From assembly GCA_963402885.1 (NCBI GenBank), contig OY727094.1, positions 35,528,501 to 35,592,500 of the forward strand: a DNA stretch of 64,000 nt, read 5' to 3'. This stretch comes from Antedon bifida (Eukaryota > Echinodermata > Crinoidea > Comatulida > Antedonidae). Below, one piece after another: positions 6,301 through 63,880 of this stretch (positions are counted from its first letter, which is position 1; every line of letters begins with the position of its first letter). A program made the translations under genes and the position numbers. The notes beneath the pieces were generated by a model. It did not search any database. It was not told the DNA's origin and saw only the letters and a program-made list of their open reading frames with translations.

Positions 6301-9300
6301 CTATGACAAGATAATTAGATCACTGAAAATATAACAGTATAATATATTTATATTTTTTTTTTTATTTTATTCCTTTCATATAATAATATTAATTAATGCA
6401 ATGATAAATTTAAAAGCAAATTACTGAGGAAATGACAATGCTGTGGGTATTAGTGGCTAGATATCAATGGAGATACAATTAAAATAAGCACTAAAAATGA
6501 CAATGCTGTGGGTATTAGTGGCTAGATATCAATAGAGATACAAATAAAATAAGCATTGAAAAAATGACAATGCTGTGGGTATTAGTGGCTAGATATCAAT
6601 GGAGATACAAATAAAATAAGCACTAAAAATGACAATGCTTTGGGTATCAGTGGCTAGATATCAATAGAGATACAAATAAAATAAGCATTGAAAAAATGAC
6701 AATGCTGTGGGTATTAGTGGCTAGATATCAATGGAGATACAAATAAAATAAGCACTGAAAATGACAATGCTTTGGGTATTAGTGGCTAGGTATCAATGGA
6801 GATACAAATAAAATAAGCACTAAAAATGACAATGCTGTGGGTATTAGTGGCTAGATATCAATGGAGATACAAATAAAATAAGCACTGAAAAAATGACAAT
6901 GATGTGGGTATCAGTGGCTAGGTATCAATGGAGATACAAATAAAATAAGCACTAAAAATGACAATGCTGTGGGTATCAGTGGCTGGATATCAATAGAGAT
7001 ACAAATAAAATAAGCACTGAAAAAATGACAATGATGTGGGTATTAGTGGCTAGATATCAATGGAGATACAAATAAAATAAGCACTGAAAATGACAATGCT
7101 TTGGGTATTAGTGGCTAGGTATCAATGGAGATACAAATAAAATAAGCACTAAAAATGACAATGCTGTGGGTATTAGTGGCTAGATATCAATGGAGATACA
7201 AATAAAATAAGCACTGAAAAAATGACAATGATGTGGGTATCAGTGGCTAGGTATCAATGGAGATACAAATAAAATAAGCACTAAAAATGACAATGCTGTG
7301 GGTATCAGTGGCTAGGTATCAATGGAGATACAAATAAAATAAGCACTGAAAAAATGACAATGATGTGGGTATCAGTGGCTAGGTATCAATAGAGATACAA
7401 ATAAAATAAACATTGAAAAAATGACAATGCTGTGGGTATTAGTGGCTAGATATCAATGGAGATACAAATAAAATAAGCACTGAAAATGACAATGCTTTGG
7501 GTATTAGTGGCTAGATATCAATGGAGATACAAATAAAATAAGCACTGAAAATGACAATGCTGTGGGTATCAGTGGCTAGATATCAATGGAGATACAAATA
7601 AAATAAGCACTAAAAATGACAATGCTGTGGGTATCAGTGGCTGGATATCAATGGAGATACAAATAAAATAAGCACTAAAAATGACAATGCTGTGGGTATC
7701 AGTGGCTAGATATCAATAGAGATACAAATAAAATAAGCACTGAAAATGACAATGCTGTGGGTATCAGTGGCTAGATATCAATGGAGATACAAATAAAATA
7801 AGCACTAAAAATGACAATGCTGTGGGTATTAGTGGCTAGATATCAATGGAGATACAAATAAAATAAGCACTGAAAATGACAATGCTGTGGGTATTAGTGG
7901 CTAGATATCAATGGAGATACAAATAAAATAAGCACTAAAAATGACAATGCTGTGGGTATTAGTGGCTAGATATCAATGGAGATACAAATAAAATAAGCAC
8001 TGAAAAAATGACAATGCTGTGGGTATCAGTGGCTAGATATCAATGGAGATACAAATAAAATAAGCACATACAAAATGACAATGTTATGGGTATCAGTGGC
8101 TAGATATCAATAGAGATACAAATAAAATAAGCAACAAGCTAAATCAAAACAATAAAGTAAAAATGCCAGAAACCTTCGGAAAACACTATTCCATCATCTT
8201 ATTCAATAAGTTATAGTTTAATGGTATAGTTAATTTAATGTATATTACTGAAGTAAAACAATGAATCTACTGCAGTATTAATATTAATCTTGTAAATTTT
8301 CTGCTAGAAATTTAATGACGGTGAGGGCGACAATCCATGGGTGTTTTATTTCATGAGCGCAGCCGAGAAACAGAAGTTTGAACTTGCGGTCAGTGATGCG
8401 TGGCAGAAATCAAAACAGGTTTGTACACGTTGAAATCCTCTTTTGTCCACACTGCAATATGCCCATATATGGATACGATGATGTCATATCACTACCATAT
8501 TTAAGCATATCACCACCATATTTGGGCACATCACACCTTTTAGGTCAAACTAGTTTGATAGTGTAGACAGAGCTTTACATTGAGCAGTGTTTTACCAGTT
8601 GCAGCAACAGCAGGATGTGCATTATTTATCTGTAGGTAGGCGATACAGAAATCATGAATTGATTAGTTGTGGGTTAATTTTTACTTCATTTTTCATGTAA
8701 TTCAATATTTAGTACGAAAATATAAAAAATTATCAATGTATGTTTTCTGTATTGTTTACCTACAAAAGAATATATTTCATAATGATGGAATGATTGCAGG
8801 AATATAATTTTATTTCAAACTAATTTTTTTTTTTACTTTTAAAATTGTGATTATATTGAACATTTTTGTATTTGTTTTTCTTTTTTGTAATTGCATGTAA
8901 TGTATTTAATGTAAAGTTCCCTATTTTACAATACATCCATATTTTATATCTGCTATTTTTGTAAGCCTGTTTTATCATGTGAGCATGCTCAAATCAAGAT
9001 GTCTATATAACCACTTAGGCTGCTGTCTTAAGACACTAAAGTTTGTGCTTAATAAAGTAATATCTATAGGTGCATTAACGCCTTCTGATTGGTCAGTGCT
9101 TGCTGGATCCATATCACTATATCCATATATATCGAATGTTGATCTTGTCATCTACTCTGCTTTTAAGTTTGTGTCTTAAGTTTGTATCTGCTTGTAGACC
9201 TAATTGATTTTCTATGCCTGTAACAAGATTACATATAAATTTGTTGGATCCATTTATTTAAGTAAGGGGTTAACTTCTTATCCTAAACAAATATTGCATG

Positions 9301-11339: not shown

Positions 11340-12690
11340 CTGCGCTTTTTTTAAATATAAGGGTCGAAATTTGGCCATTTTTGAAAAATATCCTGTACTT
11401 AGTACAGGGATTTTTTTTTAAATGGCCAAAATATGAGGTTTTTAAAATTCAATTATTATGCAATAATATGGCTATACATGTGCATATATTGCTTTGTATC
11501 ATCTTATAGAGCCATATTAACCAGTTTTGTCGAAAAATAACAAGGTCGAAATTGAGCCATTTTTGGAAAAAATCTGTACAGGAATTTTTTCAAAAAATCC
11601 CCAAAATACCGACTTTTTGAGGTTTTTAAAATTCAATTATTATGCAATAATATGGCTATACATGTGCATATATTGCTTTGTATCATCTTATAGAGCCATA
11701 ATAACCAGTTTTGTCGAAAAACAAAAAGGTCGAAATTGAGCCATTTTTGGAAAAAATCCCTGTACTATAGTACAGGGATTTTTTCCAAAAATGCCCAAAA
11801 TACCGACTTTTTAAAATTCAATTAATATGCAATAATATGGTTATACATGTGCATATATTGCTTTGTTTTATCTTATAGAGCCATATTAACCAGTTTTGTC
11901 GAAAAATAACAAGGACGAAATTTAGTCGTTTTTTGGAAAATCCCTGTACTATAGTACAGGAACTTTTGCGAAAATTGCCCAAAATATCTACTTTTTAAAA
12001 ATCAATTATTATGCGATAATATGGCTATACATGTGCATATATTGCTTTGTATCATCTTATAGAGCTATATTAACCATTTTTTTTCGAAAAATAACAAGGT
12101 CGAAATTTAACCGTTTTTGGGAAAATCCCTGTACTATAGTGCAGGGATTTTTTCAAAAAATGCCCAAAATACCGACTTTTTAAAATTCAATTATTATGTG
12201 ATAATATGGCTATACATGTGCATATATTGCTTTGTATCATCTTATATAGCCATATTAACCAGTTTTGTCGAAAAATAAAAAGGTCGAAATTGAACCATTT
12301 TTGGAAAAAAATCCCTGTACTATAGTACAGGGATTTTTTCAAAAAATGCCAAAAATACCGACTTTTTAAAATTCAATTATTATGTGATAATATGGCTATG
12401 TATGTACATATATTGCTTTATATCATCTTATAGAGCCATATTAACCAGTTTTGTCGAAAAATAAAAAGGTCGAAATTTATTCATTTTTGGAAAAAATCCC
12501 TGTACTTATAGTACAGGGATTTTTTCAAAAAATGCCCAAAATACCGACTTTTTAAAATTCAATTAATATGCGATAATATGGCTATACATGTGCATATATT
12601 GCTTTGTATCATCTTATAGAGCCATATTAACCAGTTTTGTCGAAAAATAACAAGGTCGAAATTGAGGCATTTATATATTTCGAAAAATAT
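11340..12690. repeat. About 185-bp satellite, 7 copies, each centred on a palindrome
   Basis: The landmark 'ttgctttgtatcatcttata' recurs near 11489, 11671, 11858, 12040, 12226, 12413 and 12599, giving a period of 182-187 bp. Each unit also has CCAGTTTTGTCGAAAAATAA and, in most, an inverted repeat built on 'ccctgtactatagtacaggg'. In the copy at 11742-11793 the palindrome is perfect over 52 bp. A further diverged copy at 13075-13240 lies beyond the Penelope-like fragment. Confidence 0.93.
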
Positions 12691-20289: not shown

Positions 20290-20662
20290 AAACTCTGTTT
20301 CAAGTCAGTATAATATTATGAAGATATATTTTTATTGCTTTTTCGAACCGAACATGATTTCACAAACAGTCCTACATTGTAATGTACCTCGTCGATGATA
20401 TGTAATTCATAATACTTTTGTAAGTTTAGTACTTTTTGACGTCAATGTAAACATCTAACAACAATGCTTGTTTATTTTCTAACAACAAACACTGTCAAGT
20501 TAATAAAATAAGACCATTCACCACTCACAAAGCAAGTTTTTTCAGCAAGATTTGATGGTTTAAATTGTCTTACAAATATTACATATTACAAAATTGTGTA
20601 AGAAAATTATATATATTGGGAGAACACTGAAGATGAAACTCATATTCATATCATAAACTTTA

Positions 20663-21583
20663 TAATGTTGTAAACACGTTTATAATAATGTTGTAAACAT
20701 GTCTATAATAATGTAGTAAACATGTCTATAATAACGTAGTAAACATGTCTATAATAATGTTGTAAACATGTCTATAATAATGTAGTAAACATGTCTATAA
20801 TAATGTAGTAAACATGTCTATAATAACGTAGTAAACATGTCTATAATAATGTTGTAAACATGTCTATAATAATGTAGTAAACATGTCTATAATAATGTTG
20901 TAAACATGTCTATAATAATGTTGTAAACATGTCTATAATAATGTAGTAAACATGTCTATAATAATGTAGTAAACATGTCTATAATAATGTTGTAAACATG
21001 TCTATAATAATGTTGTAAACATGTCTATAATAATGTTGTAAACATGTCTATAATAATGTTGTAAACACGTCTATAATAATGTTGTAAACACGTTTATAAT
21101 AATGTAGTAAACATATCTATAATAATGTAGTAAACATGTCTATAATAATGTAGTAAACATGTCTATAATAATGTTGTAAACAGTCTATAATAATGTTGTA
21201 AACATGTCTATAATAATGTTGTAAACATGTCTATAATAATGTTGTAAACATGTCTATAATAATGTTGTAAACATGTCTATAATAATGTTGTAAACATGTC
21301 TATAATAATGTAGTAAACATGTCTATAATAATGTTGTAAACATGTCTATAATAATGTTGTAAACATGTCTATAATAATGTAGTAAACACGTCTATAATAA
21401 TGTTGTAAACACGTCTATAATAATGTTGTAAACACGTACGTTTATAATAATGTAGTAAACATATCTATAATAATTTTGCAAACATGTCTATAATAATGTA
21501 GTAAACACGTCTATAATAATGTAGTAAACACGTCTAAATAATGTTGTAAACATGTCTATAATAATGTAGTAAACATGTTTATC
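20663..21583. repeat. 23-bp minisatellite, about 40 copies
   Basis: The unit 'aataatgt[t/a]gtaaacatgtc' plus 'tat' repeats for 0.92 kb with few changes. Point variants at two positions (tgttg/tgtag, acatg/acacg) are interspersed along the array, and a few units lack or gain 2-4 bases. The contiguous repeats have no unique spacers. Confidence 0.95.
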
Positions 21584-32946: not shown

Positions 32947-33265
32947 CAATTTCAATAAATTAATGTGCTTCAATTAATATTGATAATATAATCTTTTGTT
33001 GCACCGCCTAATGAAGTGTCCCTTCCAGTGACTTGAACAATGTCGTCTGCAACATTCAGCCTAAACCGATTTTATACTTTAAGTCAATCAATATAATACA
33101 ATTTCCTCTATTATAATGAATGCAAAACTACGAAGAAGCAAACAAATATTTGTTGTTGTTGAAGTTTCTCTAAACAATTACTTTTTTACTTACAGACTAT
33201 GGATTTAAGGATGAACAGTTTGCTGAACTGAACATTGTTTTGTGAAATTTAAAGTGAAAAACATC

Positions 33266-36200
33266 ATGCCGGGTTTGATAAACCGTCACACACGCACGAA
33301 AATCCCACTTCAGGGTATTCGCGTATCATCGTGTGTTAACGGACAGTCCTTAGCAACCACGTCTGCGCTTACGTATTACAATGACGAAGATCACGTGGTT
33401 GAAGGATTCTTTGTTCTTCCATTGGACGAGGCTAGTTCTTTGGTGGGATTTGAAGCCCACCTTCAAACTCGTAACATTACAATACAACTTAAAGACAAAA
33501 CTGATATAGATCATTTTAACGAGCACTTAGGTGGAGGAAGCCAAACTTATTTAGTACAAGGAAAGTTTACTCTCTCTGAAACCGAAGAACAGACTATATT
33601 CTGTGCGAATATTGGAACGATTCGACCTTTTGGATCTGTCACACTTTTATTGAGTTTGGTTTCTGAATTACAAACGAACGTTGAGGGTGGTGTAGTTGTA
33701 AAATATCCATGTGTGTTAACTCCACGGTTGCAAACGGATTTTCGAACGAATTCCACAAAAGATTCCGATTATCAGTCTGTCTTGAATGATGATTTTCAGG
33801 AAATTCTACAAACAGACGAAAATATAATTCCAGAACAAACGTTTAAAAAGTTGTCAGAAATTGCAAATGAAACGCCGTACAATCCAATGGAATACAACTT
33901 TGAATTTCAACTGGAAGTTAAAGCGCCAACGTTATTAGCTGGTGTATGGAGCTCGAGTCATTCGATACGTGTTGACGCGGATCCGTTTGCAAAAGACGCG
34001 TCGTCAGTATTTGTAACGCTTGCCGAACCACATCCAATGGACAGAGATCTTGAAATTACAGTTTTCCGAAGAAACATAAGCGAACCTGTAGTTATTCTTG
34101 AACATGGGAACATGCGTCCCGAAGAATACGAAGTGTTTGTTAAATCAGAAAACGAGTTTATCCGAGAAGCCGATCTTGGTGACGAAAATGAACGAAATGT
34201 TTCTTATATAAAAAATCGACTTCATAAAGATATTATGCACGTTCCAGTCCTTATGTTAAACTACTTTCCAAACTATGACGATTTTAAAAAGAAATTCCAA
34301 AGAGATGAATATGAAGTTCCTGGGGAATTTGTTTTTGTTGTAAACCGAAGTAGCAGTATGTGTGGTGACACCATCGCTAACACTCGGGAATCTCTACTAT
34401 TATGCATAAAAAGTCTACCTTTCTCATGTCGCTTTAACGTTGTTGGATTTGGTTCCACGTGTAAAACCGCGTTTGAACAAAGTCGGCCATACACGCAGGA
34501 CAATGTAAAAGAGGCTAGCAACCACATTCGCACGATTCGTGCAGATCTTGGTGGGAACAACCCGGACCTTCACACTGCTTTGTCGTGGGTATTTGAGCAC
34601 CCTGTGGCAAGGGGATGGCCTAGACAAGTGTTTATCATAACTGACGGTGGAATTTCGAATTCTGGTCAAACAATTGAACTTATAAAAGCAAATTGTAACA
34701 ACACGAGGTAATTACTATAACAAAAGTCGTGACATATTCCTTTTCAGTAATAACTCATACTTGTACAATTAATTCTTAAGTGGGTCTATATTAAATAATG
34801 AAACTGACAATATACATTTAAAACACATCTTGTTTAACAATCTTTACTGGTACTAATATATCTGTATATATTTGTTAGCCTATACATTTATAAATGCGTG
34901 AAATAACCTATGGTTTTCTAGTAAAAGTTACTGAGTTTATGGTGTTTCTGTAGGGTGCACGTTATAGGTGTTTGGTACAGGTCTTCCACCTCTTCTTTAA
35001 CAATATTTAAATATTAGCTTATACGCCTATAAATGCGTAAAATAACCTTTAAATTTTATGATTTTATGGTGTTTTTGTAGGGTGCACGTTATAGGTGTTG
35101 GGTACAGGTCTTCTACACTACATCTTGAAACCATGGCAAGTGTTGGTAGAGGGACAGCGGTGATGATCAACAAAGAAGACAGAATGCATAAAAAGGTATT
35201 ACATTATTTCTTTTCCAATCTAGTTTATGACTAATGTATTCCTTTTGTAAATCCTCCCCATGGAGCTATTAGGTATTCCATTTACTAATCATCCGTCGGT
35301 GCATTTTAATACAAAGTAGATGTTGCAGTTCAATATATATATATTTCCTTTCTCAAACATGCTCAATCAATCTATTTCTTTTAGTTCGGAATATTTTATC
35401 CATATAAAAAAACACGTACAAACAGAAAAAGAAAAAAACAAAATTCGCAAACTCTAAGCTTAAATATAAGTTAGAAAGATTAAAGAAAAAAAGAAATTTC
35501 TGATCATAAAGAAATAGCTAAAAGAATGCTGCCAAATATAAAGTGGAGACAGAACAACTAGAGTAGAGTAAATCTAGCGGAATATCTAGTTGAAAACTTT
35601 TATCATTTCAGGTTCTCGAACTTTTAAAGAGCTCTTTACGACCATGCATTAGTGACATCACCTTCCAGTGGTCTCTTCCATACGGTATAGAGTTGTGTCA
35701 GACACCAACACACCATCCAACACTACTACAAGGAGAGTCAATCGTTGTATACGGAATTCTAACAGATACAGCTGGAATGAAAACGACGGTTGGATCGTTC
35801 CTGAAGGAAGAAAGGCATAATCCATTCCTGGACAAGAATCTATCAGACGATCAAAGTGTTGATATGGAAGATGATCGAAATTCGTCATTTTCTCCTCAAC
35901 AGGATAGTCAGTCCAGTAACCGGTCGTTTATTGGAAGTAAGTTCTGGTTTATGTGTAACTTAAGCTCTATGAAAAAAGTTTAAAATACCAAATATGGTAA
36001 TAATATGCCAAAATATGTTAGTGGTATGACATAATCATGTCCATATATGGGCACGTTTTGTTGTCACATAAAGTGTGATAGTACATACGTGACAGAGCTT
36101 TATATCTAAAAATAAATCGTACTGAAGGAAAGTAATTTCGGATTATTTAAGTGTATCTTATAGCTTAAAAAACTCTGGAATTATGGCAAGTCATTTTAGA

Positions 36201-47424: not shown

Positions 47425-50400
47425 ATGGGGAAACTGCAACTAACGCTACTTGGTTTGTTTTGCGTATCAATAATACTCAAAGAATCACGTATGTATTTTA
47501 TTTTAAATAATAGTAGTGCTATCGTTATAATCACATGTTATTTTGGGCTTTAAATGCTTTTAAATTGCCCGAATGGAATGACCCTTGACCCTCAATAGCA
47601 ACGACAATGCTACAAAGAACTACGGTACTGTAGTAAAACAAAGAGAAAGTTACTAACCAAATTTTGTTTTTATATCTACATTTTTTACATTTATTTATTT
47701 GGCATGGTATGACTATTATCTACATATATTTTGTTTTATATTAGGGTGCAGAAATAATCCACCACAACAAAAACTAGGACTATGCAAAGAAGAACTTGGT
47801 ATGACGTCTGGTGAAATCCCAAGCAGCAGTATAAATGTATCTAGCGAAATAGTCAACTACACTTCTGCTTACTCTCGATTGAACTCCGCTGGTTCTTGGT
47901 GTTCAGGAAGGTCAAATTCGACAATTCAAATAACTTTTGATCGACTGACAAACGTCACAGGCTTCAAAACAAAGAGTACACAAAATACGGTGTTTACTGT
48001 TAGCTATATAGGCCTATCTAATAAATCGAATGAATGGCAAAGCATTCTTAATAGACCAATGGTTAGTTTTTTTTATCTACTTAATTCTATGTCAATTACC
48101 CACTGGAACATCGTATTAGTAATAATGATGATTTAGCGAGAGAGAGGTGGTGAAGGGAGGGGAGGGGGGGAGAGAGTGGGGCTTGGGGAGGGAGAGAGAG
48201 AGTGGGGCTTGGGGAGGGAGAGAGAGAGTGGGGCTTGGGGAGGGGGAGAGAGAGTGGGGCTTGGGGAGGGAGAGAGAGAGTGGGGCTTGGGGAGGGGGAG
48301 AGAGGGTGGGGCTTGGGGAGGGGGTGGTTAATACAGGTAACGCAAGTTCTTGCTTACATTTTCTAATGCATGCAAAGTCCAAAATGTTTCTTTAAATATT
48401 TAAAAACAAGCCATGGTTATATAGTCATTAGTCAACTAATTTGTCGCTACTTTCAAAATGTGTTTGTATTTTTTTTGTCAAAGGCCGTGTTTCCGCGCCA
48501 AAAATAACCGATAATTAACCAATAAAAATTATTCGATAAACTGCCTGTGGAAACGGGGTTGAACCGATTCCACTCTGGAAAAATTAACCGATCATTCAAA
48601 TCAGATAATTATCAGATAAATGCGATAATTGTTTACCTTTTACCTGAGGACAAATTGTTGAGATGTAATTGGGAATCTGTTTTTTTGGTCATGACTGATC
48701 ATGCGCACTTTATTGGTTAAAAAAGTAATTAATAATTTTGTTTTAGCTGCGGAATAACGGCCAACGGAATTACCTATATCATGTCATTCTTATTTTTCCA
48801 GTCTGAACAATACGATCACAAAATGTCTAAACATTTCTTTTTATCACAAGTCGAAATGTCAGTTGTTAATATAAGAATCACTGCGAACGAAAATATATGC
48901 ATCGGACTTGAACTGATGGGTTGCAAAGGTAATTTAATAAATAAATAATAAATAATTTCGTCCACTTACAGGAAAACAGAATATAGAATTGAGTGCATCA
49001 CAAGTTATTCTCAAACGTAGGCCTGCTTAGTAGCAACAATTACGTCAGAGAATGCAAACATGTGACTAATGAACAAAGCTGAAGATTACGATTACCAACA
49101 ATGGATCGGCGTCTATTTCAAATAGCGAAAGCATAAACAGACTAGAGAGTATTTATACTTCTGTCTTAAATAGGCCTAATTTCCCTACATACAACTCTTC
49201 CCACCCCGCTATATCTTATTTATGTGTCTTTAGTACTATGTGTGATTAGGCTATTATATTACTATAGGACCGGTGAATGGGTATATGCATTTAGCTTCCG
49301 GTTAAATCCCAGCATGAGGCCTTCATTATTAAATTAATTTACAAAATTAATAATTGTGGACTTTTTAACGAGCAACTCAATCTCCAATATTTGTCTGTAT
49401 TTCATTATTATTTTGCCTTTAATGACACTTAGTCACTATGTACAGTAAAATAACACTAATAGTAATTGTATAATAATAGTATTGGTACTTTCTTTGTGTA
49501 CAGAACACGTGTGGTGTGCTGAACAATTGTTAGAGTCAAAAATTATAACCGAAAAGCAGATAAAGTTTTGCCCAGACGACGTGGAAGAGCCACATGAACA
49601 CGTGCAACTAAATTCCGATACTGGTTGGTGTGGTTACAACAAGTCTGTAATCCACGTGAATTTTGTTGAACCCACAAACGTAACCGGAATAATTACCCAG
49701 GGTGCATTTCGTTCAAATAATTGGGTTACAGGATACCATGTCTACTGCAGAAGACCTGGTGGCAATTGGGAACACGTGACATCGGCGTACAATTGGAACG
49801 CAACTGAGGTTTGTCACTTGATCTACTAGTAGGAGGAATTGTAACTAACAAACAATACCACCTTACCAGTGACCATGGTTGGAAGAAAGTTTTTTGCATT
49901 CCTGGTTGCATTAATTTTTCTCCAATCAGGTTAAAGGAAGAAATCAGAAATAACATACAATTGGTACATCATATAAGGTGTTGAAATATCTAATGTCAGG
50001 TTTCGCCAAGCCAAATGTTTGGCCGTGTGGTATAGGCTTCAGACGAAGAAATAAAGCACTGGTTTCAATTGCCATCAACATTTCAACATCATCATCAGAT
50101 ATTATTTAGAGCGTTAGGCTCAGTTTTATTTAGGAAATAGATCAAATCTCTTAATTCCTTATCATAGAAAATAATTAACGCTCGTGCGTATTTATGATTT
50201 CTGCCTTTACTTCTTTCTCCTGCTGCCCACTTACATTCTCTCGACTCAATGAAACATAATTGTATTAAAATAAAAACGTCATTAGCGTGGTACGTGTCAT
50301 GTGTTTGTTGTTATTGCATGATGCATAATTTCCACAACAATATACAGTTCCTCCTGAGTTTTTTTTAAAGAATTGTATTTTTTTTTTTTTTGGCTTGATT

Positions 50401-53400
50401 TATTTTAGCCTTTTCTTTTCAACGGCAACAGTGATTCTGAAACACCAGTGATGAACACGTTCTCAGATGTTATTTATGCGTCATCAATTATCATCCATAT
50501 CCAAACTTGGAATAACCAGCCGTGTTTGCGATTTGATCTACTCGGCTGCTCTGGTAATTTGTTTTTCCTAAGTATTCATTTTTTTTTAATAACTGTAGTG
50601 CTTCGCGTAGAAAAATGTGCTCAAACTGACTAAGGTTCTGTCTACACTATCTAGTTTTACAAAAAAAATGTGATGTGCCAAAATATGGTAGTGATATACC
50701 CAAATATGGTAGTTATATGACATCATCATGTCCATATATGGGCACATCACATTTTTCACATAATGTTTGATAGTGTAGACAGAGCTTAAGCGATACTCCG
50801 ATTTTAACAAAGTATAAATCAAAAGCACTATAGAGATGTAGTAAATAGATTTTTATTATATTGTGCTTTTAGATTACACATCGGATGAAATCGCAGAGAA
50901 AACTGATGGATTCGATGATTGGTGGTCTGAATATTATGATCATCTCAACGACACATTTCAAAACAGTAGTCATTGTCGTTTTCCTGTAATTAATTACAAC
51001 TGGCTCCTCAACAAGATACAAACACATGGTAAGGGCTATCAAAAAGTAAACCGATTCTGTACGTAGAATTAGTCATCTATATATATACATCTGTTTTGCA
51101 TCGTAAAGAAATATTCGTTTCTAATCACAAAGGTGGCGGAAAGATCGGAAAAGAAATGACACAAAATACTTCAGACTACGGATATACTCATGCTACGTTG
51201 GCTACTATCTACAGCACAAACACCGATAGAAACAACACAACAGGTAACTCTGGTGGTGAAAAGCAACAGCAATATCCTGCACGTACAGAAGGTTCAAGAC
51301 TCAGCACCGTGACGTATGACGAAGATGACATTTCAAATCGGCTAACATCCAGTGCAAATGAGAAAATAATGGTAACACATATAGATAATGCTACTAATGT
51401 GTCAACACATCAAGCTGTACGTACGACTATAGAAACAAAACTCAACTCAGTAAGAGGTGGATCAGAGATGGGACCATTCAAGGAAAATAATGCAGACGAA
51501 CTGACAACACCTAGTTACAGTAAAACATTAACTACAATACACGGGAACAATGTTACAAATTACCAACAAGTTACTCCACACAATGAGACTGGGAAAAGCT
51601 TATCAGAAATTAGTATTGTTGACAACTCGACAGGTAGAACTATGATGAGTGACAGTCCTGTATGGTCAACGCCATCTCCAAATGAAGACAATATTAATCA
51701 AGTGAGAGCAAACACCAGTGCAGTTGGCACAACCGATACATTAACAGAACACAATGAATACCAAAGCGAAAAAAGTACTGGAACCTCAGAATTCGTAGGT
51801 GAAAATGAAAAAAGCAAGGTCACAACCAATTCAGACGATTTAGAATTTACTTCAAAGCAAGAAATATTGGATGATAAAGCTACCGATGAACAAGATTTGA
51901 CAACTAATACTGACGTCAGAATCAAAGAAGATACTACTGTAACAACTGGTGATTTACTAACTACCCAAAATCTCGAGTTATTGGAAACTACATCTAATGA
52001 TGGTAAACAGGTTCCGACAACTGATACTGACGTCATATCAAACGAACGAACTCCTGTAACAGGCGATTTAGCAACTACCCAAAATCCGGAATTGTTGGGT
52101 TTTACTTCTACCGACGGTGAACAAGATGCTGAAACTAATACTGACGTCATATCAAGCGAACGAACTCCTGTAACAAGCGATTTAACAACTACCCAAAATA
52201 CTGAATTGTTACATTTTACTTCTACCGATGGTGAACACGCTGCTGAAACTAATACTGACGTCATATCAAACGAACGAACTCCTGTAACAAGCGATTTAAC
52301 AACTACCCAAAATACTGAATTGTTACATTTTACTTCTACCGATGGTGAACAAGCTGCTGAAACTAATACTGACGTCATATCAAACGAACGAACTCCTGTA
52401 ACAAGCGATTTAACAACTACCCAAAATACTGAATTGTTAGAGTTTACTTCTACCGATAGTGAACACGCTGCTGAAACTAATACTGACGTCATATCAAACG
52501 CACGAACTCCTGTAACAAGTGATTTACTAACTACCCAAAATCTCGAGTTATTGGAAACTACATCTAATGATGGTAAACAGGTTCCGATAACTGATACTGA
52601 CGTCATATCAAACGAACGAACTCCTGTAAAAAGCGATTTAACAACTACCCAAAATACTGAATTGTTAGAGTTTACTTCTACCGATAGTGAACAAGCTGCT
52701 GAAACTAATACTGACGTCATATCAAACGCACGAACTCCTGTAACAAGTGATTTACTAACTACCCAAAATCTCGAGTTATTGGAAACTACATCTAATGATG
52801 GTAAACAGGTTCCGATAACTGATACTGACGTCATATCAAACGAACGAACTCCTGTAAAAAGCGATTTAACAACTACCCAAAATACTGAATTGTTGGGTTT
52901 TACTTCTACCGACGCTGAACAAGCTGCTGAAACTAATACTGACGTCATATCAAACAAACGAACGCCTGTAACAGGCGATTTAACAACTACCCCAAATCCT
53001 GAATTGTTAGATTTTACTTCTACCGACGGTGAACAAGTTGCTGAAACTAATACTGACGTCATATCAAACGAACGAACTCCTGTAACAGGCGATTTAACAA
53101 CTACCCAAAATCCTGAATTATTGGATTTTACTTCTACCGATGGTGAACACGCTGCTGAAACTAATACTGACGTCATATCAAACGAACGAACTCCTGTAAC
53201 AGGCGATTTAACAACTACCCAAAATACTGAATTGTTAGATTTTACTTCTACCGATGGTGAACACGCTGCTGAAACTAATACTGACGTCATATCAAACGAA
53301 CAAACGCCTGTAACAGGCGATTTAACAACTACCCAAAATACTGAATTGTTAGAGTTTACTTCTACCGATAGTGAACAAGTTGCTGAAACTAATACTGACG

Positions 53401-56400
53401 TCATATCAAACGCACGAACTCCTGTAACAGGCGATTTAACAACTACCCAAAATCCTGAATTGTTAGATTTTAATTCTACCGATGGTGAACACGCTGCTAA
53501 AACTAATACTGACGTCATATCAAACGAACAAACTCCTGTAACAGGCGATTTAACAACTACCCAAAATACTGAATTGTTACATTTTACTTCTACCGATAGT
53601 GAACACGCTGCTGAAACTAATACTGACGTCATATCAAACGCACGAACTCCTGTAACAAGTGATTTAATAACTACCCAAAATCCTGAATTGTTTGATTTTA
53701 CTTCTACCGATGGTGAACACGCTGCTGAAACTAATACTGACGTCATATCAAACGAACGAACGCCTGTAACAGGCGATTTAACAACAACCCAAAATACTGA
53801 ATTGTTAGAGTTTACTTCTACCGATGGTGAACACGCTGCTGAAACTAATACTGACGTCATATCAAACGAACGAACTCCTGTAACAGATTCTTTAAGTAGA
53901 AATGACGTCACGCTAACTTCGTCGTCGTCGTCGTTTTCTCCAGCTGCTGAACATATCAGAACCAAAACTTCACAGAAAGTTACTGGATTATATTCAACCG
54001 AGGAAAAAAGCCTGCTTAACACACACACCACGTTAAAGTTTGCTGAATCATATTCGTCCTCCTCTTCGAGAGAGGAAACTACATCGAATAGAATAGAGAA
54101 TGTTATCAAATCGACAGCCAGAAGCTATATGACTTGCAGTTCTGAACAACTTGTTACAAACATTTTATCTAACGACGCTAATGGTCCAGTTGGCTGTAAA
54201 ATTGTAGGTGTTGCTTATTACTTTCCTCTATAATTCGTTAAGCATGGTTCCCACTAAAGACGCAACGCAAGGACATAAGCGCAATGTGACCAATCACAAG
54301 CGATAGACTATTCAAATTGTGGCTTGTCATTGGTCAGCTTGCTTGTGTTGCGTCTATGTCCTTGCGTTGCATCTCTAGTAAAAAAACTAAGCTTTTAGTA
54401 GTAGTTTTGTTACGGTAGTTCAGGTTACAGCATAATTATCGCAGCGGCAGTAGCACCATATGCAGCAAAATATTAAAGTAGCAACCATGATGTTTGAATA
54501 AATAATATCTTTATGAATCTTTGTTTCAATATCTGAAAACATTTATATAAATAAAATATATCACCGATCGCTAACACTTCACTTTTAAAATACCATTATT
54601 ATTTTTATTTTAGACGGATAAATCTATTGCCGAGTCGGCAGAAACGATTGAGCGGGAAATGATTGAAATGCTACACACGTCATCAATCGATTACATATCA
54701 ATAAAACAACATAATATGTGTAAGTAATTTGTCTTCAATGTTTAATACATGAATGTTCTTATTTTGCAATGTAGGAGGATATACAATATTATGCCTTAAA
54801 TACAAGACCATATCTCAGGACCAATATCTAAGTATCAATAGCTCATTCAAAATAATACTAAACACAAATGTGCTAAATGTATTCAGTTAAATGATTTTTT
54901 AGGAGTAGGAATGTAATCTTCAGTTAAGGTAAAGGTATTTATTCCGGTCCTCAAGTTTAACCGGAAACATTCGGATTAGGCTCTCTACAGCGACTGTCAC
55001 ATCAGCACACCGGGACACGATCCCCCACCCTTATTTGAATAGTGTACCAAGTTATTTTATGTTTTCTTGTTCTTAGATGGAATTGCTACTCTCATTTCCA
55101 AAGAAAGGAGCAACATAAGTTTATCAACTGGCGATCATGATATATTCATTTCATTCGTCAACGCAACGTTGATGTCTTCTGGTAATATCATAGTTATTAA
55201 AGTTTGCTTTCCACTTGGATGAAACGCAAGGAAGTACGCGCCGCGTAGTTACCAGTCACGACGCGACGAGATGGATCATCCAAGCTACGGCTTGTGATTG
55301 GTCAACTAAGTTGCGTTGTGCCTATGTACGTCGTCGTCGTTTTGTTGCGCCCAAGTGGGAACCAATTTTTAACACTCGTCTACCCTAGCTTACAAAGGAT
55401 GGAGTCAGCGTTAGACTCGTCTGCCCTAGCTTACAAAGGATGGATTGATTGAATTGATTGAAATTTATATTTATACTGGGTAACCTCTTCAGTCAGCTTT
55501 ACACTGGTCTGCCCTAGCTTACAAAGGATGGAGTCAGTAAAATGACCTATCGTTGCAATTACGATAATCACGTATAATAAAAAAATACTTATACGTGAAA
55601 ATGTAACACTTAAGTAAACGCCCAAACTTACAGTATCAAATGATCATCTCTCTTTTCTCTCTAATTTTCCTTTTTAATTCCTTTTTTTTTCGGTATGTCT
55701 TTGCAAATTACAAGTGTTTAATTTATATTACAGCTAATATGACTGCAGTGGTTTCCTATATGCAGCCTGATAATGATGATGTTGATCCAAGTCAGATTTT
55801 ATGGTTAGTTCCCTAAAGTTATCTAACCGTCTAGTATTTTAGTATATGTTGATGCATAATATGATCATTAAAGTTATCTCATTATATATTTTCAAAATAT
55901 TATAAGAAATTAAATTTCAAGATTAACAAAATTGTATTATTTAGCCATCAGTAACAACTTCATAAGGTAGGTGTTCATTTAATTTCTTACAGGCCAAACA
56001 ATTCCAGTTCTGTTGGTGGCGATTATAGCATTATAGGCGGTGTAATCTCAATCACACTTTACACGTTAGGAGTTAAAACCAACGCTCCAGTTAAATTTAA
56101 GGTGTATCGAACAATTACTGAAGTAAGTAACAAATTGAGTTAAATAATCTTCTGATTGTGCGTATGCAGCACGTAGAGTATTAATGAATTATAATTATTT
56201 ATAAATCAAGAACATATCTATCATATTACTGTACTAATAAAATGATATTAATGAATGTTAGTCACTAGATGAGGCTTTGATGGTGAGTGAGAAAGAAATT
56301 TGCACATTTTTCAGCCTAAACCAAAGGTAAGGACATTCTTGATAAATAATTCGTATGTGTTATTTAGGCCTAATATTGGAAATTAATCGATGTAATCTTG

Positions 56401-59400
56401 TATCAGGTGTTCGTGATAATATCAGACTTTAATATTCTCTCTAAGCCTGTGGTCAACTTCTGGATGCACAACTACGTCATCAAATGAGTACGTCAATTGT
56501 GTATGTAGTCACATGACAAGTTTTGCTGTTCTGATGCAAGTTTCGTCAAAACCGGTATGAAGGTTATTGTTTAAGATTTTACCAACAAATCAGTGACCGA
56601 AGACAACCTCAAACAATACTGCAAATTGATGGAATCCAACCTGTTTAGAAATAGACTATCTATTTAAAACTATTAAAGATGTATTGTCCCCCAAAGTCAT
56701 GAAAAATAAAGATTTTTAAAATCGGACTTTGAATAGGCCATTTTGCAGTTTCAATGAAGTTGTTCACTACCATAAGAAAAAAAACGGGGGAAAAAATTAT
56801 TTTACCTATAAAAATACAAAATAGTTAAATTACCCAAAAAACTCATTGTCTTCCAGACAATTTGACCATTTTTTGCTTTAAATTACATTTTTCTCTGGTA
56901 AATAAATTTTTTTCAGACCCAATTTTTTGTGAGAGTGAATAACTATTATGTGACATTAAAATAACATATTCAACAAAAAAATTAAAAAAAATATTTTTTT
57001 AGGGGGACAATATATCTTTAACTGCTAAGAAAATACTGCTTAAGACATTCAACCTTATGTTTACGAACAGACTACCTAACTTAAGACAAGACTACCTGCT
57101 TAAGACATTCTACCGTGTGTTTACGAACAGACTACCTAACTTAAAGATATATTGTCCCCCTAAAAAAATATTTTTTTTAAATTTTTTTGTTGAATATGTT
57201 ATTTTAATGTCACATAATAGTTATTCACTCTCACAAAAAATTGGGTCTGAAAAAAATTTATTTACCAGAGAAAAATGTAATTTAAAGCAAAAAATGGTCA
57301 AATTGTCTGGAAGACAATGAGTTTTTGGGTAATTTAACTGTTTATTTTTTCTTTTTATAGGTGAAATAATTTTTTCCCCCGTTTTTTTTCTTATGGTAGT
57401 GAACAACTTCATTAAAACTGCAAAATGGCCTATTCAAAGTCCGATTTTAAAAATCTTTATTTTTCATGATTTTGGGGGACAATACATCTTTAAGACAAGA
57501 CTACCTCCAGTTTAGACAGAACAATATTCTTCACAATTAGTCCATCAGTATATTATATTAAGAAATCTTTTTAGACATGATCCCCCCCCCCCCCCCCCCA
57601 TCCATAACATTACTAGTTTCAAACATACAACAAGAAGCTCCAACGATTACAGCATAATTGAACATACTACAGAAAGAAGTACATTTAAAACAACTTAATA
57701 AACCTTCCTTTCAGATTGATGAAACACATGGCAAGATAATAAACGTCATCACATCAATTGGTCTTTCACTGTCTTTGGCATCATTAGTTATTACGTTTAC
57801 TCTTTATATAGTTTTACCGTAAGTTGAACAAAAATAGCACAATAGTATAAAGTGAGAATGTTCCTTTTACACGTATTTCTAAACAACAATTCATGAATTC
57901 CTTTTTAACTTTTAACGAAATTAACTTTAATTTTAGAGGCCTTTGGAAATCGCTACGGAACAACATTCACAAACACCTTATTGGCAACATGATTGTATTT
58001 TACTTGGTATTTCTTGTTGGCTTAGAGAATGTGTACAATGAGGTAAGTAGGATAGAACAATCCAATTCTTTCAAACTACAATTTGCACTTGAAAACTATG
58101 TACAAGTATGCCTAAATATGGCAATGATATTCCCAAATACGGTAGTGATATAACATCATCATGTCTATATGGGCACATCACATTTTTTTTAAAAATAAAG
58201 TTTGATAGTGTAGACAGAGCTTTAGAAACAAGTTTACACTTGAAAATTAACACATTGTAAAATCAAGTTGGTCAGGGTATACACTTCGAATGAAAAAAAA
58301 AACCAACTACGCATACAAGTTATGCAAAACAAATAACATTTTGCAGACATTAACATTTATTTTAAAACACATATTTATTCATTAAAATTTCCAAACCGAA
58401 GTCATTTTGCAGTACACTCAAGGGCCATGAAAACAAGGACATTAATGTTTGTACATTTCCATTCTGCTTCAATAGAAATTTACGGCATATTGTTTGACTA
58501 TGCTTAAAAATATACATATTGCTAAATCATGTATTCTGCTTATGCAGATCTTTGGGATGATACAGTATGTATTTTTAATCTACAACAAACATCATAGACA
58601 TTAACCTAACCCTTCACCTAACATTCCATGATGCAGGGAATTGATACTACTAACTAATGGTCATATGTGGAGATACAGAACTGAGAATCGGGCGGGATGT
58701 TTACCATCTATAGACATTAAGTATTGTCTGCAGATTTTGTTATGTTTTCAGGGACTTTGTAAGTTCACAGCAGTGTTGTTGCACTTTGAGCTACAGAACG
58801 TGTTTATGTGGATGTCAGCAGAAGCTATTTATCTCGTATTTAAAGTTGTCTGTAGAACTCCTAGTAAATACAATAAGTTACGTAATTACTTGTGTATGTG
58901 TTACATTGGGTCTTTCACAATGGTGAGTCTAACGATTGCAATCAACATGGACTGCTATGGAACGCCAAACTTGTAAGTAATACAAAAGTGTTTAATAATT
59001 GTCATTATACAAATGTATGTATATGTGTGTATGTCAATTTATATTTTATTTATTAATCAATGTTTGAGAACTTGTTGTGTTGAAACTAAAAGTGTGTCAT
59101 TTCAAGTACTGTATAATAATTGAAAATCAAAACTTACAAGCTTTGTGAATTAAAATGATTTTTAACATACAGCACTTTATGATTGACTTTACAAATAATA
59201 ATAATTTAATTAGGTGTTGGTTGAAGAGAAGTTGTCGTTGGGCTGTCGTTATTCCACCCATGTTGATTGTTCTAGTAAGTAATACTACCAAGTTAACTAA
59301 ATTGCATTATTAGATAAACACAAGGCGGCCTTCTTTCTAATTGCAGTTTTAAATGGAGAAATCTGAATTGAAACAGTTATTTTTTTTTTAAATATCGGAG

Positions 59401-62400
59401 TAAATAACAAATTTATATTTCAACAGCTTAACACTGGAGTTTTGTTAAAGATGGTATATATTATCTACACAAGAACTGGTTCTATGACAAGGCAAAATGG
59501 TAAAAAAAGAACTACAGTCGGTGAAAAAGATAAACAAATACGGTTAGTGTCTATATCTATGTAATATATGTATGTTTTTAGTGGGAATCATTGAGGAAGT
59601 GCGTTCGGTAATGTTCTCTAAGGCTTGGTTTCCACTAGGACGAGATGCAAGTGAGTTGACCAATCACAATCCAAAGATTGGAAGGTCGTGACTGGTCAAA
59701 TTACTTGCTTGTGCTTGTGTTGCGGCCAATTTCAGAATGGAGTTAGTAGCGGTAGGCGTTCCAGTGAGCACGAAAAAGGTTCATTTTATGATAAAAGCAT
59801 CAGATTTGGCATACAAAATGTGAATAAACAAGAAATATTTATTACAAAAAACGCTGCTCAATATTTTAAAATTAATCATTGTTCTTTCTTCAGATATATT
59901 TATGATTAATTATTAAAAAGATGTCCTTTAATCGCAAAAATACATACAGATCAAAGATAGTTCTTTAATTATGAATCACATGCCCATTTAAAAATGGTCA
60001 GTTTTGAACTTTAATGTGCTGTGTGTGTGTGTGTGACCTCAACCTTAGGCATGCAACTGAATACCCTCTAGAGACAACGTGACTTCACAGTGGTACAAGT
60101 GTGAAATTATTCCCTTATTATATTGAATAATTTGACTTACTGAACTGAATTTTGTATATTTATCCAAATTTGATCAATCAATCAATCAAATCAATACAAA
60201 ACAATAATTCTTGCTACACTTTTCCATGCCAGTAAAGACAAGTCACACTTAGTGTGAACCAAGAACAAATTTCTCTCAAATCACTCTTTCAAACTAGTTT
60301 GACAAAACAAGTGTTATTTGTCCTAATTTCATTGTATTATACAATTATATTATGTTGGCGACGTCTGGGTACCAAATGCTTTATAGCGTTTAGCAGTTTA
60401 TATTAGAAATGAAATTACAAATTATTTTTTTTATTAACTACAGTGAATGAAATAAAATTTGTCCAAAAAAATTGATTATAAAAACAGTGTTAAGAAACCA
60501 ACAGAATTTGGATGTTCGATGTTTTCATAACAACCGAACCAAACAAGCATTCGCATGATCCTCGCCTTTTATTTCTTCGAAAAAGATTAATAAATATACA
60601 ATAGTTAGTTGTACCAAGGCAATCTATTGCTTTGTTTGTACATTTTAAAGTTTCCTTATATGGATAATGTTGTCAACAGATAGATTGCTATTTGTTTCAT
60701 TTTTCTTTTTAAATCCCGATATGTCGGGAAAGAATCAATTGAGTATTGTTCTTTGTTGTCAATTTGTTTTCTTCGAAAAAGAATGATAGAGTTGTTTGTA
60801 CACCACTTGAATTTCCTTATATGGATTTTAATTACCTCTTTCCCGCTATGTTGGGAAAAATCAATTAAGTGTTTATTGTTATTTTTTGAAAATGTTATTT
60901 TTATTATTTCTAAAAAATAGTTTACTTCATATAAGTCCTTGTAATACGATAATTTATAAACGTAAACATAATATAATCTAGAGTATCGAATTTGTTTCAT
61001 TTTTCTTTTTTCTCACTTCTATCACCAGAAAAAGACAATTTATATCAGTTTTTATTTATATAATATGATTACGAGTTGTATTATATTGTTGACTTGATAT
61101 TTTATATAGTTTTATATGCCTATGTTTTGAAATTGTATCCAGTTCTCTGCAATAACCATCAACCAATGTTGGCTGTCAGACTGAATATTGACTGATATCA
61201 ATAAATATTTATTTTGATATTTCTGGCCATTTTTGAAAAAAATGCAGATAATATTTTATTCTTGTTACTAATTATTCTACAGGCCTAAACTATTAAACAT
61301 CCAGCTAAGTAAAAACACTTTAAAATGTACAATAACCTGATATTTAGAAAACAAATCAGGCACTTTGAATAGTTGCCACACAAACTTATAATTATTTTCT
61401 TTTTATTTCATGTCATAGGATATGTCTATCAAATTTGGTGCTTTTATCACATTTTGAACAATTGGTTTTTGTATGTGCTTTAAACCAATATAAACAAATT
61501 GAAGAACATATTAATTTGTTCTTTTAATACAAATTGTGATTTTCTTTTATTAGAACTGCTGTGAAGGGTAGCCTATTGCTTCTACCTGTCTTGGGCATCT
61601 CCTGGATACTGGGTCCATTTGTTGATGGGGATAATTTGGTTGTCACATATTTGTTCGTTATCATAAACTCACTTCAAGGCGTGTTTATCTTCATTGCTTA
61701 CTGTGTGTGTGATAAAGATGTATGTATGATGCTTTTTAATTTGCCACAATGGCATTTGTGTCTAAATAATGTATAAGTAGTAATAATTATTATTGAACAT
61801 ATTTAAAGGGTTTTTCACACCTTTTCCGGCACGGTTCCGGTCTGGGGCCGGCATATTAATTCGAACGTCAATGTTTCATTTTCATGCAACTACGCGCATA
61901 ACGAGAGGCGCAGAGTCACGTGTCACGTGCCGGTCCGCCGGGCCGCCGGAACTGCGCCGAAACAGGTGTGAAAGACCCTTGAAACAGTATTACTACAACT
62001 TCATGATGAAACAAATGATAAGATCTCTAATAATTCACTTTTCTGTTGTTTTATCCAACAAACATCTATTTCATTTTTTATATTCCTTACCATTTTTGTT
62101 TATTATTTTGTACTGTATTGCTATGGAGGAAAATAAATGTCTTTTGAAATGAAATGAAAATACAGAAAGTCTTTATCAAGGATAACTCAAATACAAAACA
62201 CCTTTTTGGCTAAAGTAAAACATGTCAATTAATTTTTTATTCGTTATTTGATAAAAAGTATCTGAATTTTAAATGTTTTCGTCAATTTAATAAATACTGA
62301 CCATTAACTTAACTTACAGGTGAAAGAAGCTTACATCAAATTTAAAAAACGAAGATCATCGAAAAATCAAGTAAATGCCTCATTTGGTGAAACTGAGGTA

Positions 62401-62868
62401 AAAGTTGTAAAATGTGTACAATTTATATGTACTGTATGTTTTGCATTTGTCAAACAAACTGTAAAAATTACTGTTTAATCAGTCACATCAAGTTATCAGT
62501 TACATCCATTTAAAAAATAACTAAAGTTGACCAAAATATAGCTAAAAATGAATAAACAGAGGATGGAAACAACAATATTGTTTGTTAGCATTTAATTGAC
62601 CTCATTTTCCCTTTGCCCTACTGCTTGTGCTATTAATCTGAGGTAACCTATTTTCAGTGATTAACACTAAATGAATTAAAGATAACCAAAAAAATGTAAT
62701 AGTCTAGTTGAATTAAAACACATTTTGCAAATTCTAACAATAATTCACAATTCACTGCTTACATTTTACATCATGTAATTATTCTTAAATTAAAACAAAT
62801 TCTACTTTTTTTTTCAGACTGGAAATAGCAGCAGTCATTTCAAACTCACTACTACAAGTTTCATGTAA
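47425..62868 (+). CDS. Adhesion GPCR with two discoidin domains and a repeat-rich mucin-like stalk
   Basis: Cell-surface receptor, about 1879 aa. Exons, phase-checked: 47425-47488, 47745-48061, 48802-48928, 49504-49808, 50409-50553, 50873-51028, 51133-54203, 54614-54719, 55077-55181, 55734-55803, 55993-56122, 56315-56326, 56426-56554, 57715-57818, 57937-58042, 58752-58972, 59214-59274, 59427-59542, 61554-61719, 62320-62397, 62818-62868 (TAA). Order: signal peptide (LQLTLLGLFCVSIIL), discoidin 1 (about 22-169), discoidin 2 (170-319), linker, Ser/Thr-rich stalk (372-1395), GAIN/GPS (1396-1579), 7TM (about 1588-1830), basic tail ending TTSFM, a possible class I PDZ ligand. An in-frame ATG at 47248 would add 59 residues ahead of the signal sequence; I prefer 47425. 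The 12-nt exon is the least certain part. No named orthologue recognised. Confidence 0.85.
48130..48332 (+). repeat. G-rich 28-31-bp minisatellite, quadruplex-prone
   Basis: Seven or so copies of 'gagagagtggggcttgggga' plus 'ggg' lie in the intron inside the first discoidin domain. The + (transcribed-sense) strand has repeated runs of 3-7 G spaced by short loops. Confidence 0.92.
48483..48620. mobile_element. MITE-like fragment ('gtgtttccgcgcc...')
   Basis: 'ggccgtgtttccgcgcc' and 'ctgtggaaacggggttgaac' form imperfect inverted parts, with internal 'aattaaccgat' and 'ttatcagataaa' repeats. Family not recognised; limits uncertain. Confidence 0.35.
49504..50553 (+). other. Second discoidin (F5/8 type C) domain
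   Basis: Exons 49504-49808 and 50409-50553. LNSDTGWCGYNKSVIHVNF matches the conserved Trp-Cys strand; VTGIITQGAF and WVTGYHVYCRRPGGNWEHV follow; the domain closes at CLRFDLLGC. The exon split falls at the same place as in the first domain, suggesting duplication of a two-exon module. Confidence 0.82.
50631..50790. mobile_element. MITE family A copy in receptor intron
   Basis: Left 'ggttctgtctacactatcta' and right 'gtttgatagtgtagacagag' are inverted, with the 'gacatcatcatgtccatata' core, between discoidin 2 and the linker exon. Confidence 0.82.
51133..54203 (+). other. 3.07-kb exon encoding Ser/Thr-rich mucin-like stalk
   Basis: One uninterrupted exon gives residues 372-1395, rich in Thr, Ser, Asn, Asp and Glu with many possible O- and N-glycosylation sites. 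The first 256 codons are unique; the middle is the 38-residue repeat array; the last about 105 are unique again. It would hold the discoidin domains far from the membrane. The donor is ATT|GTAGGT at 54204; reading through would stop after a few codons. Confidence 0.85.
51903..53885 (+). repeat. 114-bp coding tandem repeat, 17 full units plus a partial
   Basis: The consensus 38-residue unit begins TNTDVISNERTPVTGDLTTT and ends QNTELLEFTSTDGEHAAE. The first unit is 39 residues and most diverged (TDVRIKEDTT). Units 6-7 and 8-9 are near-identical pairs marked by LLETTSNDGKQVP, so a 228-bp two-unit block was duplicated. Most changes are single codons, indicating recent homogenisation. Confidence 0.95.
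54240..54398. mobile_element. MITE family B copy directly after the stalk exon
   Basis: 'agcatggttcccactaaaga' to 'ctctagtaaaaaaactaagc', with the CAATCACAAGCGATAG / TGTCATTGGTCAGC interior, begins about 36 bp after the stalk exon donor and has TTA on both sides. Confidence 0.78.
55200..55372. mobile_element. MITE family B copy in receptor intron
   Basis: 'gctttccacttggatgaaac' and 'ttgcgcccaagtgggaacca' are inverted ends, with 'gtgattggtcaactaagttg' inside. It starts about 19 bp after the exon ending 55181. Confidence 0.72.
55383..55540. repeat. Direct repeats of 'ccctagcttacaaaggatgg' around a retroelement-like tail
   Basis: The 20-mer occurs three times (about 55384, 55422, 55511). Between the second and third is 'gattgattgaaatttatatt' with 'atactgggtaacctcttcag', which looks like a short interspersed element's end. 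Class uncertain. Confidence 0.6.
56673..57493. mobile_element. Large inverted repeat: two opposed copies of a 350-bp MITE
   Basis: 56673-57021 and 57141-57493 are near-perfect reverse complements separated by 119 bp. Each arm itself begins TTAAAGAT(G/A)TATTGTCCCC and ends with the complement, so each arm is a complete MITE. The spacer and arm edge hold a 47-bp direct repeat ('gacattc.acc.t.tgtttacg', 57036 and 57098). It lies in the intron between the GPS and first-helix exons. Confidence 0.9.
57582..57599 (+). repeat. Run of 18 cytosines
   Basis: An uninterrupted C run about 115 bp before the acceptor of the first transmembrane exon. Length is likely to be polymorphic or uncertain in sequencing. 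Confidence 0.9.
58105..58226. mobile_element. MITE family A copy, left end missing
   Basis: Core 'taacatcatcatgtctatat' and right end 'gtttgatagtgtagacagag' lie 63 bp after the helix 2 exon. Confidence 0.75.
59621..59745. mobile_element. MITE family B copy, right end eroded
   Basis: 'ggcttggtttccactaggac', 'gcaagtgagttgaccaatca' and 'gtgactggtcaaattacttg' match the family. It lies in the receptor intron after the exon ending 59542. Confidence 0.7.
59760..61553 (+). other. Long receptor intron before helix 6 exon
   Basis: AT-rich. An imperfect direct repeat is visible: 'cgaaaaagattaataaatat' / 'cgaaaaagaatgatagagtt' and 'tttccttatatggat' twice (about 60576-60870). Nothing coding is supported. 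Confidence 0.5.
61805..61980. mobile_element. GC-rich MITE in receptor intron
   Basis: 'aagggtttttcacacctttt' and 'caggtgtgaaagaccctt' are inverted ends of a 176-bp element with a GC-rich centre (gccggtccgccgggccgccg region). It lies just after the helix 6-7 exon. Family not recognised. Confidence 0.7.
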
Positions 62869-63242: not shown

Positions 63243-63880
63243 AATGTACTGTATATATTGATATTAGCTACGTCAACACCTGTACGTATAGTATATTTCA
63301 CCATGGGGATTTGTATAATGTACTGTATATGATTGATATTAGCTACGTCAGCACCTGTACGTATAGTATATTTCACCATGCAGATTTGTATAATGTACTG
63401 TATATGATTGATATTAGCTCCGTCAACACCTGTACGTATAGTATATTTCACCATGGGGATTTGTATAATGTACTGTATATGATTGATATTAGCTACGTCA
63501 GCACCTGTATGTATAGTATATTTTACCATGGGGATTTGTATAATGTACTGTATATGATTGATATTAGCTCCGTCAACACCTGTACGTATAGTATATTTCA
63601 CCATGGGGATTTGTATAATGTACTGTATATGATTGATATTAGCTACGTCAGCACCTGTATGTATAGTATATTTCACCATGCAGATTTGTATAATGTACTG
63701 TAAATATTGATATTAGCTCATCAACATCTGTACGTATAGTATATTTCACCATGGGGATTTGTATAATGTACTGTATATGATTGATATTAGCTACGTCAAC
63801 ACCTGTACGTATAGTATATTTCACCATGCAGATTTGTATAATGTACTGTATATGATTGATATTATTATTAGCTACGTCAA
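63243..63880. repeat. 76-bp minisatellite x8 downstream of the receptor stop
   Basis: Copies contain 'gattgatattagctacgtca', 'acacctgtacgtatagtata' and 'tttcaccatggggatttgta'. Two alternating forms (ATGGGGAT with one neighbour, ATGCAGAT with another) suggest a higher-order unit. It may lie in the 3' UTR. Confidence 0.93.

Follow-up and report, generated by a model that had tools for sequence, protein, structure and literature searches.

A gene model for an adhesion-type receptor with tandem discoidin domains on a long repeat stalk in the crinoid Antedon bifida

Does a single gene of the crinoid Antedon bifida encode a receptor in which two discoidin (F5/8C) domains stand on a very long repeat stalk in front of an adhesion-type seven-transmembrane (7TM) domain? 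The locus in question lies in a stretch of 64,000 nucleotides of contig OY727094.1 (assembly GCA_963402885.1, positions 35,528,501 to 35,592,500), which is referred to here as the window and whose own numbering is used throughout. Our answer is yes, with a probability of about 0.78: signal peptide, two F5/8C domains, a linker, a repeat stalk of ~1000 residues, a GAIN/GPS region and an adhesion-type 7TM would all belong to one gene. Judged by its 7tm_2 profile match and its similarity to solved adhesion receptors, the locus encodes an adhesion G protein-coupled receptor (GPCR; class B2).

The gene was rebuilt from the DNA as 21 exons on the forward strand, from an ATG at 47425 to a stop codon ending at 62868. 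Its product of 1874 amino acids contained no internal stops, all 20 introns displayed GT-AG borders and exon phases were mutually compatible. The coordinates of the first-pass annotation (47425-62868) and its one-exon stalk of 1024 residues were reproduced exactly, the latter as exon 7 (amino acids 372-1395). The features are given below (TM, transmembrane helix; ICL and ECL, intracellular and extracellular loop).

47425..47488, +, exon 1: start codon and putative signal peptide (amino acids 1-22), ending in phase 1 (gene model)
47745..48061, +, exon 2: N-terminal part of F5/8C domain 1, phase 1 to 0 (gene model, Pfam)
48802..48928, +, exon 3: C-terminal part of F5/8C domain 1, phase 0 to 1 (gene model, Pfam)
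49504..49808, +, exon 4: N-terminal part of F5/8C domain 2, phase 1 to 0 (gene model, Pfam)
50409..50553, +, exon 5: C-terminal part of F5/8C domain 2, phase 0 to 1 (gene model, Pfam)
50873..51028, +, exon 6: linker, phase 1 to 1, with no Pfam match (gene model, Pfam)
51133..54203, +, exon 7: stalk of 1024 residues (amino acids 372-1395), with the GAIN domain putatively beginning at its 3' end (gene model)
51902..53886, +, tandem array within exon 7: period of 114 nucleotides (38 amino acids), 17.4 copies (TRF)
54614..54719, +, exon 8: putative GAIN (gene model; assigned by position)
55077..55181, +, exon 9: putative GAIN (gene model; assigned by position)
55734..55803, +, exon 10: putative GAIN (gene model; assigned by position)
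55993..56122, +, exon 11: putative GAIN subdomain B (gene model; weak ADGRF1 alignment)
56315..56326, +, exon 12: micro-exon of 12 nucleotides encoding PKPK (gene model; gap-free ADGRF1 alignment up to the GPS)
56426..56539, +, exon 13: GPS with cleavage site HM/T and tethered agonist TSFAVLM (gene model, Pfam, ADGRF1 alignment)
57715..57818, +, exon 14: TM1 (gene model, solved-structure matches, hydropathy)
57937..58042, +, exon 15: ICL1 and TM2 (gene model, solved-structure matches, hydropathy)
58752..58972, +, exon 16: TM3, TM4 and start of ECL2 (gene model, solved-structure matches)
59214..59274, +, exon 17: ECL2 and start of TM5 (gene model, solved-structure matches)
59427..59542, +, exon 18: TM5 and ICL3 (gene model, solved-structure matches)
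61554..61719, +, exon 19: TM6 (LGISWILG) and TM7 (INSLQGVFIF) (gene model, solved-structure matches, hydropathy)
62320..62397, +, exon 20: cytoplasmic tail (gene model)
62818..62868, +, exon 21: end of the tail and stop codon (gene model)

The domain search that had been proposed for the translated protein was run with Pfam on amino acids 1-372, 320-731 and 1374-1874 and on each discoidin domain alone, the repeats (732-1373) being left out. It returned F5_F8_type_C twice, GPS and 7tm_2. The predicted succession of putative signal peptide, two F5/8C domains, one-exon stalk, GPS with tethered agonist and full 7TM was thus supported by the rebuilt model and by Pfam, and for the leader by a hydropathy scan, in which a hydrophobic stretch at amino acids 1-19 was the sole leader, located at the 5' end of the model.

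The 7TM part matched 7tm_2 (PF00002) at E 2.5e-38, the match spanning positions 4-250 of the 250-position profile. By hydropathy TM3 remained below the threshold of 1.5 and the other six helices were recovered, while the Pfam match covered all seven. Among the best 60 of 72 matches of the C-terminal part to solved sequences, ADGRL3 (latrophilin-3) came first (8.9e-44), followed by ADGRD1, ADGRL2 and ADGRE5; this likeness to subfamilies L, D and E is one of ranked matches. The tryptophan displayed by TM6 (LGISWILG) probably corresponds to W6.53, which is named in a 2026 review (PMC13197933). With a 205-residue segment of the 7TM, 31 pattern matches arose in prokaryote contigs, none confirmed by tblastn, and none in viral contigs, both searches being uninformative on animals. 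Reading past exon 19 (61720-62160) yielded a short alternative tail, VCMMLFNLPQWHLCLNNV, followed by a stop, with AATAAA at 62132; a short-tail isoform arising by such read-through is possible.

The joined discoidin head matched F5_F8_type_C (PF00754) at E 7.9e-23, and domains 1 and 2 did so singly (7e-09 and 7.2e-15), both above the gathering score of the profile (36.3 and 55.7 bits, cut-off 28.2). F5/8C domains typically carry a cysteine at both ends; these were present in both domains, where they would form disulfides C35-C168 and C174-C318. The two domains shared 26% identity (E 2e-08). Each was encoded by two exons, one of phases 1-0 and the next of 0-1, and so formed a phase 1-1 module split by a phase-0 intron. 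The split lies eight residues past a shared tryptophan in the first domain and 13 residues past it in the second, where the alignment was gapped. This phase pattern is as expected for an origin by exon shuffling followed by tandem duplication, which may account for the head. The intron splitting the first domain also contains a G-rich minisatellite of 26 bp (48159-48324, 6.4 copies).

Within the stalk, 38-residue units started at amino acid 670 and were preceded by a diverged unit of 39 residues at 631. Mean pairwise identity of 17 units, a set including the decayed last unit and excluding the 39-residue one, was 76.7% for protein and 85.4% for DNA. Across 16 units, nonsynonymous and synonymous differences (pN 0.092, pS 0.122) stood at a ratio of ~0.75, which is weak sequence constraint, as expected of a spacer in which length and composition outweigh order. 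The non-repetitive flanks of the exon were open over 257 codons on the 5' side (chance ~3e-8 from single-base composition) and over 105 codons on the 3' side (~1e-3). The stalk had been announced as a long glycosylated spacer. A long repeat stalk it is, with 31% serine plus threonine (amino acids 377-1400), but its dense glycosylation is only possible, since a single one (amino acid 1152) of the ten N-glycosylation sequons of the stalk exon (27 in the whole protein) falls into the repeat array and proline amounts to 3.4%.

Two further observations concern the stalk exon. An open frame of 808 codons runs antisense to it (51698-54124, -). Because the period of the repeat is a multiple of three, a stop-free frame of one unit tends to persist through all the others; on this argument the frame was set aside as a gene and is probably a side effect of the repeat. 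The palindrome TGACGTCA, which we take to be a CRE-type sequence, occurs 19 times in the exon (51133-54203) and 11 times elsewhere in the window; its copies in the stalk are mostly due to repeats encoding T-D-V.

Between stalk and 7TM, the GPS was recognized by Pfam at E 1.2e-08. The region above it is putatively a GAIN domain, as suggested by its position, by the GPS itself and by a weak alignment with the solved GAIN domain of ADGRF1 (E 0.0018). This alignment is gap-free across PKPK, which supports micro-exon 12. Three of the four GPS cysteines were kept (amino acids 1550, 1561 and 1563), as were histidine at P-2 and threonine at P+1 of the cleavage site. TSFAVLM, which starts at that threonine, matches the tethered-agonist consensus TxFxxLM given in passages of the review (PMC13197933). 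According to the same source, four GPS cysteines forming two disulfides are highly conserved and the cleavage tripeptide is His-Leu/Ile-Ser/Thr, a sequence that is typical and not universal. The four-cysteine pattern is treated here as a feature that does not define adhesion GPCRs.

NCBIfam returned for the GAIN piece a sole hit, to an unrelated ice-binding protein (17.1 bits, cut-off 400). From the Pfam scan of the protein pieces the families DsbD_N, Cyt_b-c1_8 and GAD-like, below cut-off and unrelated, were set aside. A survey of intron 11 for another exon that could bring back the first GPS cysteine covered nine phase 0-0 candidates (6-240 nucleotides, one of them lying inside exon 11), none of which encoded a cysteine; the PKPK exon (56315) had the top pyrimidine count before its acceptor among the nine, and its donor is gtaagg. 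The single other acceptor for exon 13 in 56380-56430 was out of frame, and upstream extension in the frame of exon 13 was blocked by TGA and TAA.

Some of the results weigh against a single gene for a self-cleaving receptor. Pfam assigned no family to the putative GAIN region that precedes the GPS. The first GPS cysteine is replaced by proline in the alignment with ADGRF1, and the cleavage tripeptide is His-Met-Thr, with methionine at P-1 versus the consensus leucine or isoleucine, so that the site may not cleave. That one mRNA would cover the whole model is deduced from exon phase and domain anatomy. Finally, intron 7 contains three AATAAA/ATTAAA hexamers, at 54472, 54497 and 54550.

The altered GPS bears on the alternative that survives best, an uncleaved receptor whose diverged GPS does not cut itself and whose 7TM is tuned not by shedding but by movement of the GAIN domain in its intact state. 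It is compatible with a single gene and differs solely in the activation step. Along with the proline and the methionine, it draws on the partial extent of the GPS match (profile positions 15-45 of 45); the retained histidine, threonine and tethered agonist speak against it, and it is considered rather unlikely, if far from negligible. The first-pass annotation had described a cleavable tethered agonist: the agonist was supported by its fit to the consensus, but self-cleavage is plausible and not assured, because the tripeptide departs from His-Leu/Ile-Ser/Thr and one of the four cysteines is missing.

The hexamers bear on a second alternative, in which one locus gives two products, the full receptor and a secreted discoidin-stalk protein whose transcript is polyadenylated in the intron just after exon 7; the soluble form would serve as a decoy or a matrix linker. 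Read-through of exon 7 stays open, adding VGVAYYFPL before a stop codon that ends at 54233, and the three poly(A)-like hexamers make a soluble head-plus-stalk isoform a live possibility. About one such hexamer is, however, expected by chance for the length and composition of intron 7 (an estimate), and the donor after exon 7 (gtaggt) leads in frame into exon 8; two regular products are held to be decidedly improbable. Least probable are two genes, one for a secreted discoidin-stalk protein, which the long, weakly constrained stalk exon could terminate, and one further downstream for an adhesion GPCR transcribed from a promoter of its own. Against them, exons 8-21 start inside the putative GAIN domain, these exons encode no hydrophobic leader before TM1 and phase runs unbroken from exon 7 into exon 8. 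One gene is favored by that continuity of phase, by the single 5' hydrophobic leader and by the extension of the putative GAIN domain across exons 7 and 8.

A second copy of the gene was not found in the window: among 23 tblastn matches, 20 of the 21 listed were exons of this same gene, micro-exon 12 being too short to register. The remaining listed match was a weak similarity to the stalk at 1966-2148 (E 0.58), and two further matches start inside the stalk array. Rfam and tRNA scans of the 64-kb window gave no matches.

Elsewhere in the window, an open frame at 33227-34711 displayed VIT_2 (1.9e-22) and VWA_3 (1.6e-17) domains. Open frames at 35594, 37244 and 43163 (+) may join it in one gene ending near 43981, which would presumably be of VWA5 type; the frame at 43163 had no domain match above cut-off. 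A frame of 549 codons at 1087-2736, acidic and serine-rich by eye, gave no NCBIfam match and one Pfam hit, below cut-off. Large tandem arrays occupied 6430-8133 (period 65 bp), 11353-12672 (186 bp), 20662-21582 (23 bp) and 63243-63864 (75 bp), the periods being those stated or multiples of them. A dispersed motif of 21 bp, CATATCACTACCATATTTGGG-like by eye and present on both strands, was encountered at 8485, 10912, 22246, 28764, 29147, 30211, 50670 and 58107; two of its copies sit in receptor introns, and it perhaps marks a repeat family.

How far does such a receptor differ from known ones? The nearest solved sequences of the head, among the best 60 of 61 matches, were the C domains of factors V/VIII, then neuropilins, which share F5/8C domains with the head and are not GPCRs. 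DDR1/2 are receptor tyrosine kinases and likewise carry a discoidin head on a signalling receptor; here a 7TM takes the place of the kinase, and no kinase domain was matched in the Pfam-scanned pieces (amino acids 1-731 and 1374-1874). The GPS and 7TM have ADGRL3, ADGRD1 and ADGRE5 among their nearest solved counterparts (best 60 of 72 matches); to our knowledge none of the three has F5/8C domains. ADGRG4 shares a long spacer, a flexible glycosylated region of ~2000 residues between head and GAIN, and differs by its pentraxin head and by SEA and HormR domains near the membrane, as described in passages of the review (PMC13197933). The Figure 2 legend of a 2008 survey (PMC2246102) names discoidin (DS) as one of the domains that amphioxus adhesion GPCRs carry. 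As far as that legend goes, these receptors likewise combine discoidin with an adhesion-type 7TM; for two cases that it marks, it places the domains at the C terminus, and a repeat stalk is not mentioned in the sections consulted.

That no characterised vertebrate member has tandem discoidin domains on a repeat stalk stands as it was worded, but discoidin was already known to occur together with an adhesion 7TM in amphioxus (PMC2246102, Figure 2 legend). New at most is the combination of tandem discoidin domains with a repeat stalk, and the novelty is modest because of those amphioxus receptors and the ADGRG4 spacer. A limited literature search, mostly without subscription papers, found no report of the exact succession of two discoidin domains, repeat stalk, GAIN and 7TM. 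The word 'discoidin' was absent from the main texts (figures and supplements apart) of a choanoflagellate survey (PMC12716839) and a sponge survey (PMC4302439), and from the first 300,000 of the 412,533 characters of the 2026 review (PMC13197933).

As to function, the discoidin pair would most probably bind a ligand present in the matrix or on a different cell; F5/8C domains bind membrane phospholipid, collagen, glycan or protein. The stalk would keep the head off the membrane and transmit tension. Pulling, or a rearrangement driven by ligand, would free TSFAVLM from the GAIN domain, and the freed peptide would enter the receptor's own 7TM bundle and activate a G protein. Taken jointly, the features could describe a lineage-specific mechanosensor, in which a tandem discoidin head, acquired in the form of phase 1-1 modules, grips matrix or membrane lipid, unequal crossing-over by 114 bp varies the stalk and a GAIN domain with fewer disulfides releases its agonist at lower force. 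So complete a scheme is speculative and clearly unlikely to hold as a whole; if true, tether length would differ between alleles or species.

The locus does not announce a new receptor class: its ectodomain is unusual, not unprecedented, and its GPS is slightly degenerate. If the transcript is confirmed, a build of tandem discoidin domains on a repeat stalk would join the adhesion GPCRs. It would then offer a natural test of tether length versus activation, as stalk length may vary because the tandem repeat is under weak sequence constraint, and another of whether cleavage persists at a GPS that has an HM/T site and only three of its four cysteines.

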